Positions 1,462 through 53,745 of a stretch of DNA of 53,745 nucleotides are shown one piece after another (the stretch's first letter is position 1; every line of letters starts with the position of its first letter). Origin of the DNA: an uncultured Bacilli bacterium. GTDB lineage: Bacteria; Bacillota_I; Bacilli_A; RF39; UBA660. The DNA lies in contig CANQHE010000004.1 in assembly GCA_947623735.1 (NCBI GenBank), positions 1 through 53,745 on the forward strand, written 5' to 3'. The position numbers and the translations under genes are program-made. Under the pieces are notes generated by a model. The model was not told the origin of the DNA and did no database searches. It saw only the letters and a program-made list of their open reading frames with translations.

Positions 1462-2934
1462 ATGAATAAAAAGATTGTAGTTTTTAGTATGGTTATACTA
1501 ATTGGGGGTATAGTATGCATTTCTAGACCTAAAAAAGAGATGCATACTATAATGGTACCCAAAGAAACATTTCAAGAAGAAAATGTAATGGCAATATATT
1601 TAAAAGATGGAGATAATTACAAACAAATAAATGCTATACCTACAGAGGGTAATTATGTTTTAAATAATACAGAAACATATTGTACAGAACCTGGTAATGA
1701 AGAAGAGTTAAAAGATAGAGTAGCATATGATAGTAGTACTAAAACATTAAGTGTCTCAACATTAACTAAAAAGAATACTAAATGTTATTTGTATTTTGAT
1801 AAACAATTAACAAGTAAAGAAGTATTAGAAAATACTTTAAAACAATCATCACTAGGAGAAGTAAATAGTTTTACTGGAACAGCTTGTGGAGGAAGCTGTG
1901 ATATAACTACTCAAAATGGAATATATGAGGTTGAAGATGATTATGGCACAAGTTATTACTATAGAGGAACAGTAAATAATAACTGGGTAGTATTTGGCCA
2001 AGAGAAAAATAGCAATAAATATATTTGGTGGCGAATTATCAGAATTAATGGAAATGGAACAATAAGATTAATCTATGCTGGTACTAGTAGTGATAAAAAA
2101 ACTGCTCCAAATCCACAAGGAGTAGATACAATGATAACGCCAAGAAAAACTATTAATAATTCCTATCCTCGCGCTGTGTATTTTAATCAAAACTATAATG
2201 ATAATACATACGTAGGTTATATGACAGGAGGAATAGGCAAAAGCAAATACGAAGAAACACATACAAATGCAAGTAATAGTACAGTATTAGATGAAATAGT
2301 AAATTGGTATACAAATAATACAAACTTAGGAACATTAGCAGCAGATTACATAGATGTAGATACAGGATTCTGTGGAGATAGACAAGTAGATAAAACTGTG
2401 CTTACAAGTTATCAAGGTGAAGGCTATGGAACTAGTCAAACAGGATATGCCCCATGGGGAAGATTGTATAATAATAATTGGAAGAAAACCCAAACACCAA
2501 CGTTAAAATGTGGATATAAGTCAGATGGATCAACAGATAAAACAGCACAAGAAAGAGATTTGTATACGGGACCAAATGCTAATACAAGTGGAACAAAAGG
2601 AAGCAATGGAACAATAGTAAAAGGAAATAATAAGCTGCCAGTTCCGGTGGGCTTAATAACAAGTGATGAAGTAGTATTTGCAGGAGGTTTTGGAGGAACA
2701 GCAAATAATGGATATTGGTTATATACTAACCAGTATTATTGGACAATGTCTCCGTTTTACTATCCGAATGCTAGCGTGTTCATTGTGAATGCTAATGGCG
2801 GCCTCAGCAACTTCGGCGTGAACAACGATGTCTTTGGTGTGCGCCCAGTAATAAATCTGAAAGCTGGTACAAAATTTACAGTTGAGTCAGGAACAGAAGG
2901 CTCAAGACAAAATCCATACGTAGTCCAAACGTAG
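1462..2934 (+). CDS. Surface gene A: hypervariable lectin-like protein, DGR target
   Basis: This 490-residue protein has an N-terminal membrane anchor or signal (about residues 4-21) and an all-beta-looking module with a conserved Cys pair (about 40-115; Y-C-T-E ... K-C-Y-L-Y-F). A long C-terminal domain follows, shared with genes B-E: YYYRGTVNNNWVVFG, IWWRIIRINGNGTIRLIYAG, FCGDR, TLKCG, GLITSDEVVFAGG, YWTMSP, GVRPVINL. The variable island is residues 432-462. The fold is probably of the C-type-lectin/FGE class used by DGR target proteins, here probably displayed outside the membrane. The ATG has AGAGGTGG upstream. The body is nearly identical to gene D, including 314 identical bases, while its 3' end and flank match gene E, so the gene looks mosaic. 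Ligand unknown. Confidence 0.75.
   Translation: MNKKIVVFSMVILIGGIVCISRPKKEMHTIMVPKETFQEENVMAIYLKDGDNYKQINAIPTEGNYVLNNTETYCTEPGNEEELKDRVAYDSSTKTLSVSTLTKKNTKCYLYFDKQLTSKEVLENTLKQSSLGEVNSFTGTACGGSCDITTQNGIYEVEDDYGTSYYYRGTVNNNWVVFGQEKNSNKYIWWRIIRINGNGTIRLIYAGTSSDKKTAPNPQGVDTMITPRKTINNSYPRAVYFNQNYNDNTYVGYMTGGIGKSKYEETHTNASNSTVLDEIVNWYTNNTNLGTLAADYIDVDTGFCGDRQVDKTVLTSYQGEGYGTSQTGYAPWGRLYNNNWKKTQTPTLKCGYKSDGSTDKTAQERDLYTGPNANTSGTKGSNGTIVKGNNKLPVPVGLITSDEVVFAGGFGGTANNGYWLYTNQYYWTMSPFYYPNASVFIVNANGGLSNFGVNNDVFGVRPVINLKAGTKFTVESGTEGSRQNPYVVQT
2755..2847 (+). other. DGR variable region of gene A
   Basis: The island between the codons for YWTMSP and the RPVIN motif is about 53% GC over its last 75 bases, against a very AT-rich surrounding gene. 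Its fixed codons (GTG TTC, GTG, GGC, CTC, GTG, GGT GTG CGC) lack adenine. The other codons end in C or T and differ from genes B, D and E at the first two bases. GGTGTGCGCCC at the 3' end is a plausible GC-rich initiation-of-mutagenic-homing segment. Confidence 0.75.
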
Positions 2935-2942
2935 ACTACGTA
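2917..2942 (+). other. Hairpin at the 3' end of gene A (DGR target-site type)
   Basis: TACGTAGTC and GACTACGTA form a perfect 9-bp stem around an 8-base loop and span the stop codon. Gene E has the same structure with one G-T pair and loop GGAACGTA instead of CAAACGTA. DGR targets are known to carry a hairpin or cruciform just downstream of the variable region that stimulates homing. Assigning that role here is inference. Confidence 0.55.
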
Positions 2943-3038
2943 TGGAAGTAGAAATACTTCAAGGAGTGTAGAGTGGTGGTTCAAAATGGTTAGTTCTTTT
3001 TGCTTACATCGTTTGCAAAAAGTTACTTCAAGTAAAAT
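2936..3038 (+). repeat. Structured 103-base repeat, copy 1 (second copy 53525-53627)
   Basis: The segment matches the flank of gene E at 100 of 103 positions. It contains a GAAGTA-GAAA-TACTTC hairpin with a GNRA-type loop (2945-2960) and a second stem CTTTTTGC/GCAAAAAG with an 11-base loop. No T-run follows, so it is not a simple terminator. It ends just before the convergent gene at 3043. It probably belongs to the DGR cis-elements, or was copied together with the 3' end of a target gene. Confidence 0.6.
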
Positions 3039-3042
3039 GTGA

Positions 3043-10711: not shown

Positions 10712-10782
10712 AGTCAAGTGAAGGGTAAGAAATTGACTTTTTAATAATTTCTTTATATACTTAAATCATAGGGGATGTGAAA

Positions 10783-12021
10783 ATGCAAAATAAATATAAA
10801 AGAATATTATTAATTGTAGCTTTATTACTTGTTTTAACTATTGCTTTAGGGGTAGCATATCTTTTTTATGAAAAAGCAAGTAATGATGAAACTATGGTGG
10901 AAGTTGTCGGAGAACTTTCAGTTAATTATATAGATGGAGCTAATGTAAAAGGGAATGGTGAATATAAATTTTCGGTAACTAATAATGGAATTAATGATGT
11001 CTATTATGAAATATTAATTGATAATTTAAAGAATTATGAGTCAGATGTTAGATATACTTTAACAAGTAAAGATGCAAGTATTGAAGTAGAGATGAGTAAA
11101 ATAAATGTCAGTACGAATGTTATATCTAGTAATATTTTAATACCTAAGGGGGAAACGCAAAATTTTACTTTAAAAATAGCAAATAATAAAATGACTTCTT
11201 TTGATATAAAACTTAAGAAAACAACAGATTCTAAAGAATATTTTTATGCGACTATTTTAAAGAATAATCAAGTTAAAAAAGAGACGAAAACGAAAGTAGG
11301 AATAGACATTAGTAGTACTGATGAAGGACTAATTGAGGGTTATGATGATTTAGGACTTACGTACTTTTTTAGAGGTAATGTTAAAAATAATTATGTTAAA
11401 CTTGGAGATAATATGTGGCGAATAGTCAGAATTAATGGGGATGGGACTGTAAAATTAGTGTTAGATGATGTTTCCAGTGAACTTACTAGTTATCATACGG
11501 AACAAGAAGAATATGAAGATTTTAGTAAGACAAGTATTTTAAATAGTTTAAATGCCTATTATGATGCATATTTACAGGAATTTGAAGATGATATTGTCAG
11601 TTATAAGTTTTGTGTAGAAACCGGAAGTACAAGTGAAGATAAAAATAAAACATATAATTCTTATAACCGGGTAGCAATAAATAAAATACCGACATTTAAT
11701 TGTTTAGGAGAAACTTATAGTAATCGAATTGGTCTTTTAACCGCCGATGAAGTAATGTATGCCGGAGCAAATTTAGAAGAAGATAATACTAGTTTTTATT
11801 TATATAATAGTGATATTGAAGATAGTTGGTGGACAATTTCTTTAGCGAAAGCTGATAGTACGCTTTTTTATCCGTTTATAATAAGTAAAGAAGGAAAAAT
11901 AATTAGTAATGTAAGTGGAGCAACATATAAAAATTTAAGACCTTCTATAAGTTTAAATCGGAAAGTTATTGTAACTGGTGATGGGACTCGGAGTAATCCT
12001 TATATAATTGCTCAAGTTTAA
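10783..12021 (+). CDS. Surface protein paralogue without a variable island
   Basis: The 412-residue protein has an N-terminal membrane segment (about residues 7-25) and a beta-rich domain (about 35-165) resembling the start of surface gene C. Its C-terminal domain is related to the DGR targets: Y-F-F-R-G-N-V-K-N-N, W-R-I-V-R-I-N-G-D-G-T-V, G-L-L-T-A-D-E-V-M-Y-A-G. Where the targets have YWTMSP ... GVRPVINL, it has WWTIS ... LRPSISL. The DNA between these motifs is ordinary AT-rich coding sequence with no GC island and no NNC codon bias. It is probably a fixed relative. ATG at 10783 has AGGGG eight bases upstream; a GTG six bases earlier is too close to that site. Confidence 0.65.
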   Translation: MQNKYKRILLIVALLLVLTIALGVAYLFYEKASNDETMVEVVGELSVNYIDGANVKGNGEYKFSVTNNGINDVYYEILIDNLKNYESDVRYTLTSKDASIEVEMSKINVSTNVISSNILIPKGETQNFTLKIANNKMTSFDIKLKKTTDSKEYFYATILKNNQVKKETKTKVGIDISSTDEGLIEGYDDLGLTYFFRGNVKNNYVKLGDNMWRIVRINGDGTVKLVLDDVSSELTSYHTEQEEYEDFSKTSILNSLNAYYDAYLQEFEDDIVSYKFCVETGSTSEDKNKTYNSYNRVAINKIPTFNCLGETYSNRIGLLTADEVMYAGANLEEDNTSFYLYNSDIEDSWWTISLAKADSTLFYPFIISKEGKIISNVSGATYKNLRPSISLNRKVIVTGDGTRSNPYIIAQV

Positions 12022-17239: not shown

Positions 17240-18820
17240 TTGAAGTTTGAGAAATTAAATTATAGTAGTGGAAATGTAAAGAAAGCATTTGTAATAGGCA
17301 TAGTAGTAACATTATTATTTATAGTTATAATTAATTTATTTTTTACAAGAGCAAAATATAAATTAGTGGAAAGTAGGAAACTAGCTAGCGGGACAATTAA
17401 TTATACCTTAGTTGATTTTGAGTTGGTAGAAATAAAATTTAAAGCAAATGGTAGTGAAAATTATGTAGATGTAGATACTATAGAAGATAATTATGTTTTA
17501 AATGAAGAAGATAGCTATTGTACAGAGAAGTATACAAATGAAAATAATAGTTTTGAAGATATAAGAAATGATAATTTAAAAATAAACTTTGATAAAGATA
17601 CAAAAACAATAAGTGTAAGTCCATATAGTAAAAAAGGGACTAAATGTCATTTATATTTTGATGAAAGCTTACCATCATTATGCGAAGAAGGAGATACAAC
17701 ATGTGAAACATTACTTGGAAATGTTACAATAAATCCAAGTTGTCCAGAATTAGATGAAAATGGTGATGGAACAATAGCAGAAGTAAAGAGTGCAAATGCC
17801 ATGATATGTAAAGCAAAAGATGACTTTGGAACAAGTTATTATTATAGAGGGACAGTAGATAATAACTGGGTAGTTTTTGGAAAGGATAAAACTGGCAGTA
17901 ATTATATTTGGTGGCGAATTATTCGGATAAATGGTAATGGAACAATAAGACTTATTTATGCTGGAACAAGCACTAGCCCTAAAAGTGCCCCAGAAACAAC
18001 AGGAAATACAACAATGATAAAACCGAGAACTGAAATAAACACAACTGACCAATATAGAATGGCTGTAAGATTTAATGAACAATATAATGATAATAAATAT
18101 GTAGGTTATATGTATGGCGGAACAAAAGGACAAGCAAGTACAGGCTATGATGCAGCACATAAACCTGAGACAAAAAGTACAGTATTAGAGGAAATTGAAT
18201 ATTGGTATAACAATAGTACAAATTTAGGAGATTTAGCTGAACAATATATAGATGTTGAAACAGGCTTTTGTGGAGATAGAGGGGTAGATACAACATCTGT
18301 ATCAGGATATACAGGACAAGGTTATGGAACACAACAAACAGCATATGCTCCATGGACAAGATTGTATAATGGGAGTTGGAAAGGAACACAAACACCAACA
18401 TTAAAATGTGGAAAAGATACAACAGCTCAAAAAAGAGACTTGTATACTGGCCCAAGTGCAAAAGGCACGAAATCAAGTAGTGGAACATTGATTGAAGGCA
18501 ATAATAAATTGTCTGTCCCAGTAGGTTTAATAACCAGTGATGAAGTAGTATTTGCAGGAGGATTCGGAGGAGCTTCCAACAATGGTTATTGGCTATATAC
18601 TAATAGGTATTATTGGACAATGTCTCCGTCTTACTATTATTATTATAGGTCTTCGAACCAGTATGCTTACGTGTTCGTTGTGAATACTATTGGCGCCCTC
18701 GGTGCTGGCAGCGTGAACAACGATGACTATGGTGTGCGCCCAGTAATAAACCTCAAAGCTAATGTAAAAATAACTGGTACTGGAGTAGATGGAGATCCAT
18801 ACGTAGTTGTAACAGCTTAA
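17240..18820 (+). CDS. Surface gene B: hypervariable lectin-like protein, DGR target
   Basis: The 526-residue protein has a membrane anchor at about residues 16-34. A Cys-containing beta module (about 70-145) resembles that of gene A, and a Cys-rich insert follows (E-E-G-D-T-T-C-E-T, about 150-185). The shared lectin-like domain carries the same motifs as A, D and E: YYYRGTVDNNWVVFG, IWWRIIRINGNGTIRLIYAG, YWTMSP, GVRPVINL. The variable island is residues 464-501. Translation starts at TTG, chosen because GAAAGGAAG lies just upstream. It is divergent from a small RHH gene and closed by a strong terminator. Its presumed ligand is unknown. Confidence 0.73.
   Translation: MKFEKLNYSSGNVKKAFVIGIVVTLLFIVIINLFFTRAKYKLVESRKLASGTINYTLVDFELVEIKFKANGSENYVDVDTIEDNYVLNEEDSYCTEKYTNENNSFEDIRNDNLKINFDKDTKTISVSPYSKKGTKCHLYFDESLPSLCEEGDTTCETLLGNVTINPSCPELDENGDGTIAEVKSANAMICKAKDDFGTSYYYRGTVDNNWVVFGKDKTGSNYIWWRIIRINGNGTIRLIYAGTSTSPKSAPETTGNTTMIKPRTEINTTDQYRMAVRFNEQYNDNKYVGYMYGGTKGQASTGYDAAHKPETKSTVLEEIEYWYNNSTNLGDLAEQYIDVETGFCGDRGVDTTSVSGYTGQGYGTQQTAYAPWTRLYNGSWKGTQTPTLKCGKDTTAQKRDLYTGPSAKGTKSSSGTLIEGNNKLSVPVGLITSDEVVFAGGFGGASNNGYWLYTNRYYWTMSPSYYYYYRSSNQYAYVFVVNTIGALGAGSVNNDDYGVRPVINLKANVKITGTGVDGDPYVVVTA
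18629..18742 (+). other. DGR variable region of gene B
   Basis: The island starts after YWTMSP, has 14 codons before GTG-TTC (five to seven more than D or A) and ends GGTGTGCGCCCA. Fixed adenine-free codons coincide with genes A, D and E. Two variable codons end in T where the others end in C, so the template or an older version of it may differ slightly. It shares the stretch CAG TAT GCT with gene E, suggesting the same template lineage. Confidence 0.72.
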
Positions 18821-18846: not shown

Positions 18847-18887
18847 TTCTTGCTCATATTGCTTTCGAATTTATATATGAGCAGGAA
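18847..18887 (+). other. Long inverted repeat after gene B
   Basis: TTCTTGCTCATAT pairs with ATATGAGCAGGAA over 13 bp with one wobble pair and a 15-base loop. It has no T-run and precedes the true terminator. It occupies the place where genes A and E carry their 3' hairpin but has no sequence in common with it. Function unknown; it might stabilise the message. Confidence 0.5.
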
Positions 18888-18897
18888 GAAACTCCAT

Positions 18898-36933: not shown

Positions 36934-36992
36934 TACCATTGACAATGGTATTTAGTTTTGATATTATTTTTATAGTACCATTGTGGGTGGTA
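36934..36992 (+). promoter_or_regulatory. Promoter of gene C with two XRE-type operators
   Basis: TTGACA (36939-36944) and TATTAT (36962-36967) are 17 bases apart. The perfect palindrome TACCATTGACAATGGTA (36934-36950) covers the -35 box. A second site TACCATTGTGGGTGGTA (36976-36992, 5 of 7 pairs, same 7-3-7 spacing) lies at the start of transcription. The centres are 42 bases apart, four helical turns, which allows cooperative binding. Confidence 0.75.
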
Positions 36993-37010
36993 TATAGGGA
37001 GTGCGATAAA

Positions 37011-39224
37011 ATGAAAAGTAGTACCAAGAAAATAATAATCGCGGAAGCATTTGTAATATTATTAGGATTAGGAATATTTTTAACATTTGCTTATTTTTCT
37101 ATTGGGGCAAAACAAGATTTACCAAATAAATTTTCATCGGGATGTTTAAGTATTGAAATAATTAATGATAGTCCAGCGATAGATTTAAAAGATGCAGTAG
37201 CAATAAGTGATATTGATGGTTTATTACAAAAAGATAATTATAAATTTACAATAAAGAATAATTGTGATAAAGAAACTAATTATCAAATAAATTTAGAAAG
37301 TTTAGATAAGCAAGATAATACTTTAAAAGATGAATATTTAAGAGTATCATTATCAAGTGATACAATGGATAATTTAATAAGTACATTAAGTGAAAATGAT
37401 GCAACAAAAAATTATATAGATGGTTCTTATATATCACACAAATTATATGAAGGTGTATTAGATGCACAAGAAGAAAAAGAGTATATCTTAAAAGAGTGGA
37501 TAGAATATAATACAACGAAAGAAGAAGGAGCAGAGAAGACATATAAATCAAGAATAAATGTAATAGCAACGAGTGGAGAAGTAAAAGAAAGTCCAGAAAT
37601 AAAGTTTAATTATAGCAATGGAAAAGTAAAAGGAACAATAATAGGAAATGCAAATTCAATAACATATTGTGAAACAAAAGATAATAGATGTGAACCTAGT
37701 GAATCAGGAAATATAGAAGAAACAGGAGTAACATTAACATCAGGAGTAAAAGCAGCAACAAAGACAGTAGGAACAGCATTAGGAAATTTAGAAGTGAATA
37801 CATCAAGTAGAGGGATGATGTGTAGTAAAATAGATAATGGAAAAACAATATGTAGTAATCCATATCAATATGACTCAACACCAGTATTTGGTATTACAAG
37901 TGAACAAGCTGATAAAGGTGGGGGAGTCTGTACATATGATGGTAATGCTGTTATGAATTTTATGGGAGGGTCAGTAACAGAAGAAAGTTGCCAAAAGGTA
38001 TATAAAGTTACAATGCAAGGACAAATAATATATTCAGATGATTTAGAGCCAATGATTGATATGGAATTTGGTCAATATTATAAAGGACCAGGGGTATGGA
38101 ATGAAAGTGAAAAAACATGTACATATAATGGACAACAAGTTTTAGATATGCAACAACAACCAATAAAAAGTGAAGAAAAATGTGGAAAAGTATACAACAT
38201 GGAAGGGAGTTATGTTTCATTTTATGTAATAGATTACTTTACTATGATGGGTGCAGAAGAAGTTACATTAATGGGAGCAGGAGAGTATAAAGAAGCAACA
38301 GGAAAAACCGGAATATATGAGACAGAAGATGAAGAAGGAACAAGTTATTATTATAGAGGAGCAGTAGACAACAATTATGTAGACTTTGCCGGATTTTATT
38401 GGAGAATAATAAGAATCAATGGTAATGGTTCAATAAGATTAATCTATAGTGGAAAGAAAACTGAAATAGATGGAACAGGTCAAAAAGATGAAATATTAAA
38501 AAATGGATATAATGATAGTAGTAATAGATATACAGAAATAGAATTATCTACGGGAAGTAAAACTGGTCCTTATAGTGGTAGTGGTCTTTATAATGATAAT
38601 GCATATGTAGGATTTATGTATGGAGATGTAGGAGCAACGACATATGCAGAAACCCATAAAAATGAACATGATAGTAATGCCAAAAAAGAATTAGATAACT
38701 GGTATACAGAGAATTTAAAAGAAGTAGAAGGTAAATTAGATACACAAGCCGGTTTTTGTAATGACAGAAGTTTAGGAGAAGGATATTCTAGTACCAGTTC
38801 TGGATACGGAACAGAGTATGCAAATTATGGAGCGTATGATAGAATATGGAATAAACGTCAACCAACATTAAAATGTAAAAATAAAACAAATGATTATTTT
38901 ACATGGAAAAATCATGCGACAACAGGAAATCAAGCATTAGATAAACCAATAGGCTTAATAACAGCCGATGAAGTAATGTATGCTGGAGGGACAGGAGATA
39001 CAAATTATACTTATTATTTATATAATGGTACTTATTACTGGACCATGTCCCCGGGCTACTTCGGTGGCTCGACTGCGCGCGTGTTTAGCGTGAGTCTCGG
39101 TGGTGACCTTTACGACAGCAACGTGCTCGACCTCAGTGCGTTGCGGCCAGTTATAAATGTGGACCCTAGTAAAGTGAAAATATCTGGAACTGGTACTATT
39201 AAAGATATGTATGTATTTAAGTAG
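37011..39224 (+). CDS. Surface gene C: divergent hypervariable lectin-like protein, DGR target
   Basis: The 737-residue protein has a membrane segment (about 9-29) followed by a TasA/camelysin-like beta domain, as in the gene at 10783. A long low-complexity middle has three Cys-containing repeats (C-T-Y-D-G-N-A-V, C-T-Y-N-G-Q-Q-V). The shared C-terminal domain includes Y-Y-Y-R-G-A-V-D-N-N-Y, R-I-I-R-I-N-G-N-G-S-I-R-L-I-Y, YWTMSP and L-R-P-V-I-N-V. The variable island is residues 682-713. The start follows GGGAGTG. Regulation by the divergent XRE protein is likely. Its island does not share codon positions with A, B, D and E, so it probably uses another template. Confidence 0.7.
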   Translation: MKSSTKKIIIAEAFVILLGLGIFLTFAYFSIGAKQDLPNKFSSGCLSIEIINDSPAIDLKDAVAISDIDGLLQKDNYKFTIKNNCDKETNYQINLESLDKQDNTLKDEYLRVSLSSDTMDNLISTLSENDATKNYIDGSYISHKLYEGVLDAQEEKEYILKEWIEYNTTKEEGAEKTYKSRINVIATSGEVKESPEIKFNYSNGKVKGTIIGNANSITYCETKDNRCEPSESGNIEETGVTLTSGVKAATKTVGTALGNLEVNTSSRGMMCSKIDNGKTICSNPYQYDSTPVFGITSEQADKGGGVCTYDGNAVMNFMGGSVTEESCQKVYKVTMQGQIIYSDDLEPMIDMEFGQYYKGPGVWNESEKTCTYNGQQVLDMQQQPIKSEEKCGKVYNMEGSYVSFYVIDYFTMMGAEEVTLMGAGEYKEATGKTGIYETEDEEGTSYYYRGAVDNNYVDFAGFYWRIIRINGNGSIRLIYSGKKTEIDGTGQKDEILKNGYNDSSNRYTEIELSTGSKTGPYSGSGLYNDNAYVGFMYGDVGATTYAETHKNEHDSNAKKELDNWYTENLKEVEGKLDTQAGFCNDRSLGEGYSSTSSGYGTEYANYGAYDRIWNKRQPTLKCKNKTNDYFTWKNHATTGNQALDKPIGLITADEVMYAGGTGDTNYTYYLYNGTYYWTMSPGYFGGSTARVFSVSLGGDLYDSNVLDLSALRPVINVDPSKVKISGTGTIKDMYVFK
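39054..39149 (+). other. DGR variable region of gene C
   Basis: The island after YWTMSP is about 61% GC over 96 bases, the highest in the window, in an otherwise AT-rich gene. Nearly all codons are NNC, NNT or NNG, and many are typical products of AAC/AAT mutation (GGC, TAC, TTC, GGT, AGC, GAC). It ends GCGTTGCGGCC before A-encoded RPVIN. Sequence differs from the other islands at unmutated positions. Confidence 0.65.
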
Positions 39225-50045: not shown

Positions 50046-52025
50046 ATGAAAAAAAGATATGTTGTAATATTGGTGATATTGGGAATATTGATAATTGCGG
50101 GTATAAGTTTTGCGTATTTTACAGCAACATCTAAAATAAATGCTGATACAACAGGAGTAACAGTGCAAACAGCAACAATTGAAAATGTGGGATTAGTAGT
50201 AGAGGGAACTTTAACTTTTAATGATGAAGGTATTTTGCCGGGACATAAAAATGTATCAGCAATAAAAGTAACCGCAACAGCTGAAAATCAAATAATTGAA
50301 TATAATCTTATTTGGCAAGGTAAAAATACTTTGCAAACAGGATTAAAGTATTATGTTTACCGAAGTAAAACACCGATTGATCCAACTCCAGAGATTGATT
50401 GCACTAAAACCCAATCAGGAAATGCTAATTATCGAAAACATTTTGAAGTTTGTAAAGAAAATAATTTTGAAGATTTAGGAGAAGTAGTAGCAACGGGTAA
50501 TATTGATGTAGGAGATGAAGTTAAAGCAACACTTTTAACTAATGAAGTAATAAAAGGAACTAAAGATGGTAATCCAATATATTATTATGTTGTTTTAGAG
50601 TTTGTTAATCAAAATTCAGATCAAAATATTGATATTAATGGCGAGTTTGATGGAATTGTTACTGTAGAGGAAGCTGAGAATTCTCTTGCCGATATAACTA
50701 TTCGAAAGATATATTTAATAAATGAAGAAGGAGAAAAAAGTGAAACAACAAGTGTACCTAAAGAAGGATATACACTTGATAAAGATCAAAGTTCATGTGA
50801 AGGAGGAGCAACTTTAGATTGGAATAATGGTACTAATTCTTTAATGGTTCATGCAACTCAGAGTGGAACTAAATGTGATATTTCTTTTAAAGCATATAAT
50901 CCATATGAAGCAAGAGATAAAATACTTGCTGGTATAGATAAAGATAGTATAACTGAAGGAACGTTTACTGGAACAAGCTGTTCTGATGGATGTAGTTTAA
51001 AGGAAAATGGTATATATAAGACTCAAGATGATTTTGGAGATAGTTATGTGTATCGAGGTACAGTTGATAATAACTGGGTAGTATTTGGCCAAGAGAAAAA
51101 TAGTAATAAATATATCTGGTGGCGAATAATCCGCATTAATGGAAATGGAACAATAAGACTCATCTATGCTGGTACTAGTAGTGATAAAAAAACTGCTCCA
51201 AATCCGCAAGGAGTAGATACAATGATAACGCCAAAGCAAACTATTAGTAGTTCATACCCTCGCGCTGTGTATTTTAATCAAACAGCAAATGATAATACAT
51301 ATGTAGGTTATAGGACAGGTGGGACAGGTAAGAACAATTTTAATGAAACACATACAAATGCAAGTAATAGTACAGTATTAGATGAAATAGTAAATTGGTA
51401 TACAAATAATACAAACTTAGGAACATTAGCAGCAGATTACATAGATGTAGATACAGGATTCTGTGGAGATAGACAAGTAGATAAAACTGTGCTTACAAGT
51501 TATCAAGGTGAAGGCTATGGAACTAGTCAAACAGGATATGCCCCATGGGGAAGATTGTATAATAATAATTGGAAGAAAACCCAAACACCAACGTTAAAAT
51601 GTGGATATAAGTCAGATGGATCAACAGATAAAACAGCACAAGAAAGAGATTTGTATACAGGTCCAAGCGCAAATGTAAATGGAACAAAAGGAAGCAATGG
51701 AACAATAGTAAAAGGAAATAATAAGTTACCAGTGCCCGTCGGCTTAATAACAAGTGATGAAGTAGTATTTGCAGGAGGATTTGGAGGCCAAACGAACAAT
51801 GGTTATTGGTTATATACAAACCAATACTATTGGACAATGTCTCCGAATCACTATGACGGCAGCGGTGCTTCCGTGTTCATTGTGCATACTAATGGCAACC
51901 TCAGCAACTACAACGTGAGCTACAATGCTTATGGTGTGCGCCCAGTAATAAACCTAGATGGCGGTTTAAAATTATCTGGCAGTGGTGGTGCTACTGATCC
52001 ATATACAGTGGAAGGGGTTGAATAA
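50046..52025 (+). CDS. Surface gene D: hypervariable lectin-like protein, DGR target
   Basis: The 659-residue protein starts with a hydrophobic segment ending I-S-F-A-Y-F-T-A, the TasA/SipW-type start. A TasA/camelysin-like beta domain (about 30-225), a Cys-containing beta module (about 228-295; S-S-C-E-G-G ... T-K-C-D-I-S-F) and the shared lectin-like domain follow. The variable island is residues 601-633. A GAAGGTGG site precedes the ATG. From the Y-R-G-T-V segment to YWTMSP it is nearly identical to gene A, with 314 identical bases (51345-51658). One base separates its stop from gene E, so the two form an operon. Confidence 0.75.
   Translation: MKKRYVVILVILGILIIAGISFAYFTATSKINADTTGVTVQTATIENVGLVVEGTLTFNDEGILPGHKNVSAIKVTATAENQIIEYNLIWQGKNTLQTGLKYYVYRSKTPIDPTPEIDCTKTQSGNANYRKHFEVCKENNFEDLGEVVATGNIDVGDEVKATLLTNEVIKGTKDGNPIYYYVVLEFVNQNSDQNIDINGEFDGIVTVEEAENSLADITIRKIYLINEEGEKSETTSVPKEGYTLDKDQSSCEGGATLDWNNGTNSLMVHATQSGTKCDISFKAYNPYEARDKILAGIDKDSITEGTFTGTSCSDGCSLKENGIYKTQDDFGDSYVYRGTVDNNWVVFGQEKNSNKYIWWRIIRINGNGTIRLIYAGTSSDKKTAPNPQGVDTMITPKQTISSSYPRAVYFNQTANDNTYVGYRTGGTGKNNFNETHTNASNSTVLDEIVNWYTNNTNLGTLAADYIDVDTGFCGDRQVDKTVLTSYQGEGYGTSQTGYAPWGRLYNNNWKKTQTPTLKCGYKSDGSTDKTAQERDLYTGPSANVNGTKGSNGTIVKGNNKLPVPVGLITSDEVVFAGGFGGQTNNGYWLYTNQYYWTMSPNHYDGSGASVFIVHTNGNLSNYNVSYNAYGVRPVINLDGGLKLSGSGGATDPYTVEGVE
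51846..51944 (+). other. DGR variable region of gene D
   Basis: The island follows YWTMSP, has nine codons before GTG-TTC and ends GGTGTGCGCCCA. Four codons are still AAC or AAT where A, B or E have changed ones, making D useful for inferring the template. The flanking coding sequence is nearly the same as gene A, yet the island differs at most NNC/NNT codons. Confidence 0.75.
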
Positions 52026-52026
52026 T

Positions 52027-53523
52027 ATGAAAAGAAAAATAATAATATCTTTAATGTTTATTTTATTAATAAGTGTAGGTATTATTTATAAAATAAATAC
52101 TTCTTCTACTGATAAAATATATTTAAATGAAGATAATATAACTAATATAAAACAACAAGTTGGAATATATGTTGAAAATGAAAATGGAACATATAAGAAA
52201 ACTAATAATATTCCTTCACAAGAAGATGGCTATGTACTTGATACTGAAAATAGTATGTGTGAAGGAAATACCACTATAGGGTGGGATAATAATTCATGGA
52301 GTGCTGTTATAAATAATATTGAAAAAGAAAATTTAAAATGTTATTTATATTTTAGATATAAAACTGCAGCAGATAGTGCAAAAGAAAAATCGCTAGGAAC
52401 TGTTGACAGCTTTACAGGAACATCATGTGATAGTGGATGTGATTTAACTGAAAATGGAATATATGAAGCAGAAGATGATTTTGGTACAAGTTATTATTAT
52501 CGAGGAACAGTAAGTAATAACTGGTTAGTGTTTGGAAAAGAAGGCAGTAATTACATATGGTGGAGAATTATAAGAATCAATGGTAATGGAAGTATAAGAA
52601 TAATGTATGCTGGAACAAGTAATAGCAAGACATCTGCTCCATCAACAACAGGCGATGAAACAATGATCAATCCAAAACAAAGTACTGGAAATAGTACATA
52701 TCCAAGAGCGGTATATTTTAATCAAACATATAATGATAATAAATATGTAGGATATATGTATCCAGGGCAAAAAGGAAGTGCAAGTACAGATTTTGATGGA
52801 GCTCATAAAGTAGATAGTAGTAGCACAGAGAGTGACGCTTTAACGCAAATCAAACAATGGTACAATAGTGATACAAACTTAGGAACATTAGCAGCTCAAT
52901 ATATAGATGTAGATACAGGATTCTGTAGTGATAGTAGTTTAGCGCAAGGAAATCATAGTCCTTATACTGGAAATGGTTATGGAACAAGTCAATCAGGGTA
53001 TGCGGGATTAGATAGAGTATGGCAACAAAATAGCACAAGTACAAATACATCAGAACAAAAGCCGACATTAAAATGTGGATATGATGTTATAGGCAAACAA
53101 TTAAATAAAGAAGCTCAAAAAAGAGATTTGTATACCGGTCCGGGTGCAACAAGCGGAGGAACGAAAGGATTAAGCGGAAATGTCGAAGGAAATAATGCTT
53201 TACCAGTACCGGTTGGTTTAATTACAATGGATGAAGTAATCTATGCTGGAGGTTTTTATGGAAAAGCCAATGCAAACTATTGGTTAAAAACCGATAAATA
53301 TTATTGGACAATGTCTCCGTATAACTATTATTATAGTAGTTCTTCAAGCCAGTATGCTCGCGTGTTCTCTGTGCGAAATGATGGCTACCTCGGCTACGAC
53401 GGCGTGGGCAACACTATCAATGGTGTGCGCCCAGTAATAAATCTGAAAGCTGGTACAAATATAACTACTCAAAGTGATGGAGGAGAAGGTTCGAGAACTA
53501 ATCCATACGTAGTCGGAACGTAG
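52027..53523 (+). CDS. Surface gene E: hypervariable lectin-like protein, DGR target
   Basis: The 498-residue protein has a membrane anchor (about 5-22) and a Cys-containing beta module (about 38-110). The shared lectin-like domain shows Y-Y-Y-R-G-T-V-S-N-N-W, I-W-W-R-I-I-R-I-N-G-N-G-S-I-R-I-M-Y-A-G, YWTMSP and GVRPVINL. The variable island is residues 432-469. GGAAGGGG in the end of gene D serves its ATG at 52027. The 3' end carries the hairpin and repeat also found after gene A. Nearest to the right edge, it is the best candidate for the cassette-adjacent target. Confidence 0.75.
   Translation: MKRKIIISLMFILLISVGIIYKINTSSTDKIYLNEDNITNIKQQVGIYVENENGTYKKTNNIPSQEDGYVLDTENSMCEGNTTIGWDNNSWSAVINNIEKENLKCYLYFRYKTAADSAKEKSLGTVDSFTGTSCDSGCDLTENGIYEAEDDFGTSYYYRGTVSNNWLVFGKEGSNYIWWRIIRINGNGSIRIMYAGTSNSKTSAPSTTGDETMINPKQSTGNSTYPRAVYFNQTYNDNKYVGYMYPGQKGSASTDFDGAHKVDSSSTESDALTQIKQWYNSDTNLGTLAAQYIDVDTGFCSDSSLAQGNHSPYTGNGYGTSQSGYAGLDRVWQQNSTSTNTSEQKPTLKCGYDVIGKQLNKEAQKRDLYTGPGATSGGTKGLSGNVEGNNALPVPVGLITMDEVIYAGGFYGKANANYWLKTDKYYWTMSPYNYYYSSSSSQYARVFSVRNDGYLGYDGVGNTINGVRPVINLKAGTNITTQSDGGEGSRTNPYVVGT
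53320..53433 (+). other. DGR variable region of gene E
   Basis: The island has 14 codons between YWTMSP and GTG-TTC, like gene B, then the same adenine-free anchor codons as A, B and D, and ends GGTGTGCGCCCA. After it, 38 bases from GGTGTG onward are identical to gene A. One codon is CGA where the others have AAT or CAT, which is compatible with an AAA/AAT template codon. Confidence 0.75.
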
Positions 53524-53531
53524 GCTACGTA
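53506..53531 (+). other. Hairpin at the 3' end of gene E (DGR target-site type)
   Basis: TACGTAGTC pairs with GGCTACGTA (one G-T pair) around an 8-base loop, spanning the stop codon. Stem position, length and the loop end AACGTA are conserved with gene A. Confidence 0.55.
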
Positions 53532-53627
53532 TGGAAGTAGAAATACTTCAAGGAGTGTAGAGTGGTGGTTCAAAATGGTTAGTTCTTTTTGCTTACAACG
53601 TTTGCAAAAAGTTACTTCTGGTAAAAT
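53525..53627 (+). repeat. Structured 103-base repeat, copy 2
   Basis: This copy matches 2936-3038 with three substitutions. It keeps the GAAGTA-GAAA-TACTTC hairpin (53534-53549) and the CTTTTTGC/GCAAAAAG stem. The remaining bases to 53718 hold no recognised gene; ATAGCC (53676-53681) and GGCTAT (53713-53718) could pair. Confidence 0.6.
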
Positions 53628-53718
53628 ACTTACCTACGGACAGTTTTGAATAAAACCAGTGTTTATGAGGGATAAATAGCCATATTTTTCGCCCAATTAT
53701 TAGTTATAATAAGGCTAT

Positions 53719-53745
53719 ATGTATAATAAGAAGTTTTTAATTGAG
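53719..53745 (+). CDS. Start of an ORF cut by the right edge
   Basis: ATG is followed by eight sense codons (Y-N-K-K-F-L-I-E), with AAGG four bases upstream. Position after a DGR target and its structured flank is where an accessory protein or reverse transcriptase gene would be expected. Nine residues cannot identify it. Confidence 0.35.

Follow-up and report, generated by a model that had tools for sequence, protein, structure and literature searches.

A structured 3' element behind DGR target genes in a lineage of uncultured Bacilli, and its possible role at the target site

The closest described counterpart of the structures considered here is the target hairpin of phage BPP-1, which has a GC-rich stem of 7-10 bp and a 4-nt GRNA loop and lies 4-34 bp from the variable region (VR) (PMC3240598). 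This stem-loop 3' of the VR boosts retrohoming, although the process does not strictly depend on it; according to a reconstitution from 2026, it may keep the target open and single-stranded for longer (PMC3240598, PMC12875486). The DNA analysed here, referred to as the window, is a stretch of 53,745 nt from an uncultured Bacilli bacterium, belonging to contig C4 of a 1.34-Mb draft genome, and it carries five DGR target genes (A to E), all on the forward strand. Genes A and E are followed by a set of hairpins, the class 1 element, a structured feature at the 3' end of DGR target genes that is specific to this lineage.

The DGRs of Treponema denticola and of cyanobacteria reportedly have several targets or template repeats (TRs), with remote targets said to be rewritten from the TRs at adenines. 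The present 1.3-Mb genome differs from these multi-target systems in its number of stand-alone TR genes (at least 11) and of target-family genes (about 38) and in having two families of structured 3' elements; it is an unusually large multi-TR, multi-target DGR, with counts that rest on searches and retrieved stretches, the genomes being draft MAGs. Most of the TR genes have a -10-like (TATAAT-like) box before a conserved GGGTTAATCT-like start, and the IMH* of the TR, GCGCCCAATATCC, differs from the IMH of the VR, GCGCCCAGTAATAAA. TR genes are located on C10, C12 (five, four of them in tandem), C18, C35, C1 and C44. The preliminary description of the window treated genes A to E as DGR targets, and this is borne out by adenine-specific VR/TR mismatches in each of the five islands (Fisher p between 5e-4 and 1.6e-11), with 4-8 of 72-85 non-adenine positions per island differing from the best TRs, and by the presence of genes for a DGR reverse transcriptase (RT; RVT_1), bAvd and MutS_I in the genome.

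These enzymes belong to two DGR loci. The RT matches the PHROG family 'Reverse transcriptase' (2e-82) and the Avd protein matches the PHROG family 'Avd protein of DGR'; the best solved relative of the RT is 8ub7, which we take to be the BPP-1 DGR RT. The locus on C28 contains MutS_I, bAvd and RT genes, with a bAvd score of 38.8 bits, just below the cut-off of 40. That on C44 (bAvd 41.5 bits, above the cut-off) runs through a TR, a target, a P3-type hairpin, MutS_I and bAvd into an apparent group II intron start, and an RT on C57 starts after an apparent group II intron end; C44 and C57 therefore seem to represent one DGR locus split by a group II intron ahead of its RT. The TR on C44 is the match to gene C. 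In both loci, a small MutS domain I protein lies directly ahead of bAvd and RT (L011 5675-6130; L230 542-949), and the target upstream of the enzymes on C28 (L011 1046-2581) has an in-frame stop and a decayed VR.

Gene A (1462-2934, 490 aa) has its VR, as aligned to the TR genes, at 2749-2847, and the IMH GGTGTGCGCCCA occupies 2836-2847. The first hairpin of the element, P1, spans the stop codon at 2913-2946 and consists of a 13-bp stem with arms TCCATACGTAGTC (2913-2925) and GACTACGTATGGA (2934-2946) around the 8-nt loop CAAACGTA (2926-2933), so that the TAG stop codon (2932-2934) is inside P1. Gene E (52027-53523, IMH at 53422-53433) has the same arrangement at 53502-53535, with 13 pairs, one of them G.T, between arms 53502-53514 and 53523-53535, the loop GGAACGTA at 53515-53522, and the TAG stop codon at 53521-53523. 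An earlier reading of this hairpin as a 9-bp stem starting at 2917 was right about the 8-base loop and the position across the stop codon, but the stem is 13 bp long and begins at 2913. P1 has a GC content of 46% and starts 65 nt from the VR end in A and 68 nt in E, within a range of 50-76 nt across the genus.

Downstream of P1, the flanks of A and E are identical at 100 of 103 positions counted from 2936, as first described and now confirmed by alignment, and the similarity breaks off at 3039. The GAAA-loop hairpin and the stem formed by CTTTTTGC and GCAAAAAG that had been noticed in this flank are both present after A and after E. The former, GAAGTA-GAAA-TACTTC, lies at 2945-2960 and 53534-53549, and is confined to part of the lineages of the genus. 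It overlaps, and is mutually exclusive with, the P2 pairing that is the common form in the genus, usually ACACTTT-TCAA-GGAGTGT and after A ATACTT-CAAG-GAGTGT (2954-2969). A conserved core, CAAGGAGTGTAGAGTGGTGGTTCAAAATG, follows at 2960-2988, in which the 5' half of a further hairpin (P3) is kept and the 3' half lost, and the CTTTTTGC/GCAAAAAG stem, which is P4-like, is found at 2996-3022. The flank copy after E (53534-53627) likewise contains P2, the core (53549-53577) and the P4-like stem (53585-53611), and is matched by our sequence model of the element, R1, at 53535-53598. No T tract was found directly 3' of P1, P2 or the P4-like stem in either gene. None of 200 dinucleotide shuffles folded as well as the segment, whether as RNA of the sense strand (z -4.2) or as DNA of the other strand (z -6.1).

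Comparison across the genus reveals a full form of class 1, which comprises five hairpins from the target stop codon onward. P1 spans that codon, P2 comes with the core CAAGGAGTGTAG, and P3 (NNNNCAAAATGA-CTCT-TCATTTTGNNNN), whose loop is CTCT, is followed by P4 and P5. The version in A and E is shortened, retaining P1, P2, the core and the P4-like stem. Of 36 genus genomes, 26 carry class 1 according to R1, while the matches among 193 genomes of the family were restricted to two genus genomes and four weak partial matches in other genera. R1 is a sequence-only model because RNAalifold returned no consensus pairs on the P2-P3 alignment, probably owing to sequences, A and E included, that have no 3' arm of P3. 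Nearly all of the 45 R1 matches with context lie 84-127 nt past the RPVIN codons of a target-family gene and always in sense orientation relative to it, the exceptions being contig ends, copies that no longer have an upstream gene and two weak family-level matches. A wide occurrence away from target genes, which would have spoken against a link with the DGR, is thus not what is seen. We rejected three other origins: a generic genome repeat is ruled out, all core copies in the own genome being behind target genes; no known RNA family was recovered, since the Rfam covariance models gave nothing near the element at the gathering threshold and chance-level eukaryotic matches only at a relaxed one; and a phage or viral origin found no match among phage records and no exact core pattern in IMG/VR.

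The pairing of P1 is maintained while its sequence changes. Since MAFFT lost the P1 register, the pair counts were taken from an alignment guided by the pairing, and shuffled flanks and unrelated genes served as controls. Among 27 distinct stems, several pair types occur at most columns (for example C-G, T-A and T-G at pair 6, and G-C, C-G and A-T at pair 10), and the covariation looked for across homologues is thereby present as compensatory changes at most P1 columns. The pairing score reaches 10.2 of 12 for class 1 and 7.1 for shuffled flanks. Over the stop, a stem with a weighted length of at least 8 was detected in 29 of 148 target-family genes ending shortly after the VR, 23 of which have the core as searched and six no such core or a variant, and in none of the remaining 111 target-family genes. 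Identity of the flank reaches 96% between A and E and 92-94% in comparison with another species, as opposed to 71-73% for the coding DNA upstream of the VR, and it is therefore either constrained or repeatedly homogenised.

As the preliminary description stated, class 1 is missing after gene B (17240-18820, VR end 18742), gene C (36939-39224, VR end 39149) and gene D (50046-52025, VR end 51944). Genes C, a target of the C44 TR, and D, which leads straight into gene E, are without a 3' element. Gene B ends in a different structure, class 2, a hairpin of the build CTTGC(C/T)...TGCTT...GGCAAG (18848-18895; model R2, 50.8 bits) in which 8 of 11 pairs covary and which is followed by an intrinsic terminator. 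Most other target-family genes end in class 2, with 35 R2 copies in the own genome and up to 41 per genome elsewhere; own-genome copies without a previously known VR upstream were all behind target-family genes where they could be placed. Since class 2 is found behind decayed as well as fresh VRs, we regard it as a 3' end of the gene family and not as a mark of active diversification. At 10777-12021 the window also holds a target-family paralogue in which neither a VR nor a 3' element can be recognised and which may be a retired target.

Mobile elements have also been observed at these sites. The end of an IS1182-family insertion sequence (53629-53745, forward strand, terminal repeat CTTACCTACGGACAGTTTT) abuts the element after E, and an IS1182-family transposase is present in the locus stretch L014. 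The four left-hand ends found in the genome (this one and those at C5:55-77, C32:55-77 and C61:3623-3645) are all just 3' of DGR targets, while two right-hand ends (C15 and C25) directly adjoin sequence of class 1 or class 2; comparable ends occur behind targets in another genome (L103, L111, L116 and L142). The IS1182-family element may prefer these target-gene hairpins.

Loss of the element after B, C and D had been proposed to make these genes less active targets. The islands do not bear this out: TR adenines are substituted at 12 of 27 positions in A and 13 of 37 in E, and at 16 of 37 in B, 26 of 40 in C (the highest of the five) and 14 of 36 in D, so that at TR adenines B to D vary no less than A and E (56/113 compared with 25/64, p=0.21, not significant), with a trend opposite to the prediction. 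Gene A differs from its TR at 8 of 73 other bases, and non-adenine changes number 2/37 in A, 1/39 in E, 5/39 in B, 1/36 in C and 3/37 in D. Recent retrohoming was approximated by VR freshness, taken as the GC content at third positions (GC3) of the last VR codons, a proxy that correlates with non-adenine mismatches to the TRs (rho -0.71, n=38). By this measure, class 1 targets are fresher overall than class 2 and element-free targets, and the difference persists within genomes (GC3 difference 0.17, permutation p 4e-4, 9 informative genomes), in a set whose class 1 loci were largely collected by searching for the element itself and whose gene copies are related, not independent. In the own genome, 6 of 22 class 2 genes and 4 of 9 without a recognised element are equally fresh, and C and D are without an element yet fresh.

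Set against BPP-1, class 1 shares an inverted repeat 3' of the VR in which pairing is kept while the stem sequence varies (PMC3240598), and the stop codon of mtd, which is marked in the published hairpin figures (PMC3240598), corresponds to a stop codon inside P1 here. In some loci, as in BPP-1, further DGR parts come next. Its build is nevertheless different: the stem has 13 bp and is AT-rich instead of 7-10 bp and GC-rich, the P1 loop in A and E has 8 nt and is no 4-nt GRNA loop, and the distance to the VR is outside 4-34 bp throughout the genus. The small GAAA/GAGA hairpin would fit the GRNA loop but is not kept through the genus, and the 4-nt loop of P3, a hairpin lost in A and E, is CTCT. 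Moreover, class 1 is a row of hairpins, and many diversified targets in the same genome lack it. The idea that the structures behind A and E are a DGR hairpin of the BPP-1 kind is therefore supported by covariation, by the restriction to targets, by TR adjacency (described below) and by fresher VRs, whereas the stem, loop and distance features of BPP-1 and the activity of B to D do not agree with it. Because place, covariation, sense bias and freshness fit while composition, loop and distance do not, class 1 may work alike and is not filed as a member of the same group.

We tentatively favour, at somewhat less than an even chance, a role of class 1 in cis, as an accessory element at the target site, which would not be obligatory given that other VRs of the same genome are diversified without it. 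The hairpins would form on a single-stranded sense strand and would keep the DNA 3' of the VR open, which could raise the chance that mutated cDNA anneals there and is used. Such a role would be functionally similar to that of the BPP-1 stem-loop with a different build.

The main alternative, which we consider possible though rather unlikely, is that class 1 functions as an RNA structure in the 3' UTR of target mRNAs, travelling with this protein family, serving mRNA stability, ribosome release or regulator binding and unrelated to retrohoming. It would explain why the element starts within the coding sequence over the stop codon and always in sense, and why G.T pairs (13) outnumber A.C pairs (5) in P1. 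The sense strand is also the better folder in 34 of 36 cases, a bias that is suggestive and not decisive as to RNA or DNA cruciform: the two strands have similar z-scores (-4.6 and -4.1), so that part of it reflects base composition, and a sense-strand DNA hairpin predicts the same bias. Class 2, as a second structured 3' element that leads into a terminator behind fresh and decayed VRs alike, further indicates that structured 3' UTRs are a habit of the target family; against this reading, it is on fresh VRs that class 1 is concentrated within genomes, which is not so for class 2.

It is improbable, to our minds, that class 1 derives from the spacer of an ancestral VR-TR cassette, copied whenever target genes were copied, with A and E as recent duplicates or gene-conversion partners and with young copies accounting for the link to fresh VRs. 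Whether the segment adjoins a TR had been raised at the outset, and it does so in seven genus genomes, where target, full-length element and TR follow one another in the same direction with the TR 200-500 nt 3' of class 1; on C10 of the own genome two TRs lie downstream of class 1 in the opposite direction. These tandems speak for a cassette, as do the truncation of the full form in A and E and the break in their similarity at 3039. Most class 1 copies, however, have no adjacent TR, and compensatory change in P1 together with cross-species conservation of the flank above that of coding DNA argues for selection. It is very improbable that class 1 is an ordinary intrinsic terminator, with which it shares hairpins at gene 3' ends and for which P5 of the full form (a stem and then T's) might serve, or a chance palindrome, seeing that in A and E neither P1 nor the P4-like stem is followed by a T tract, that class 2, which does lead into a terminator, can come after class 1 (loci L108 and L125), so that class 1 is not simply the terminator, and that neither the 200 shuffles nor the 111 remaining target-family genes matched it.

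Returning to an accessory role at the target site, it can be speculated further, with distinctly less confidence, that class 1 is a new kind of target-recognition module, a sense-strand multi-hairpin that tunes rewriting per target. Dozens of targets would then be served by a pool of stand-alone TRs, with the module in place of the single short hairpin of BPP-1, an extension that we likewise hold to be doubtful. The way in which DGR cDNA locates its target and enters it is an open question, and most of what supports a role of the stem-loop comes from a single phage. With about 38 target-family genes, at least 11 TRs and two alternative structured 3' elements, this genome constitutes a natural experiment, in which one machinery works on targets that have a given hairpin and on others that lack it, and the effect of 3' structure on rewriting frequency is therefore measurable in one cell.
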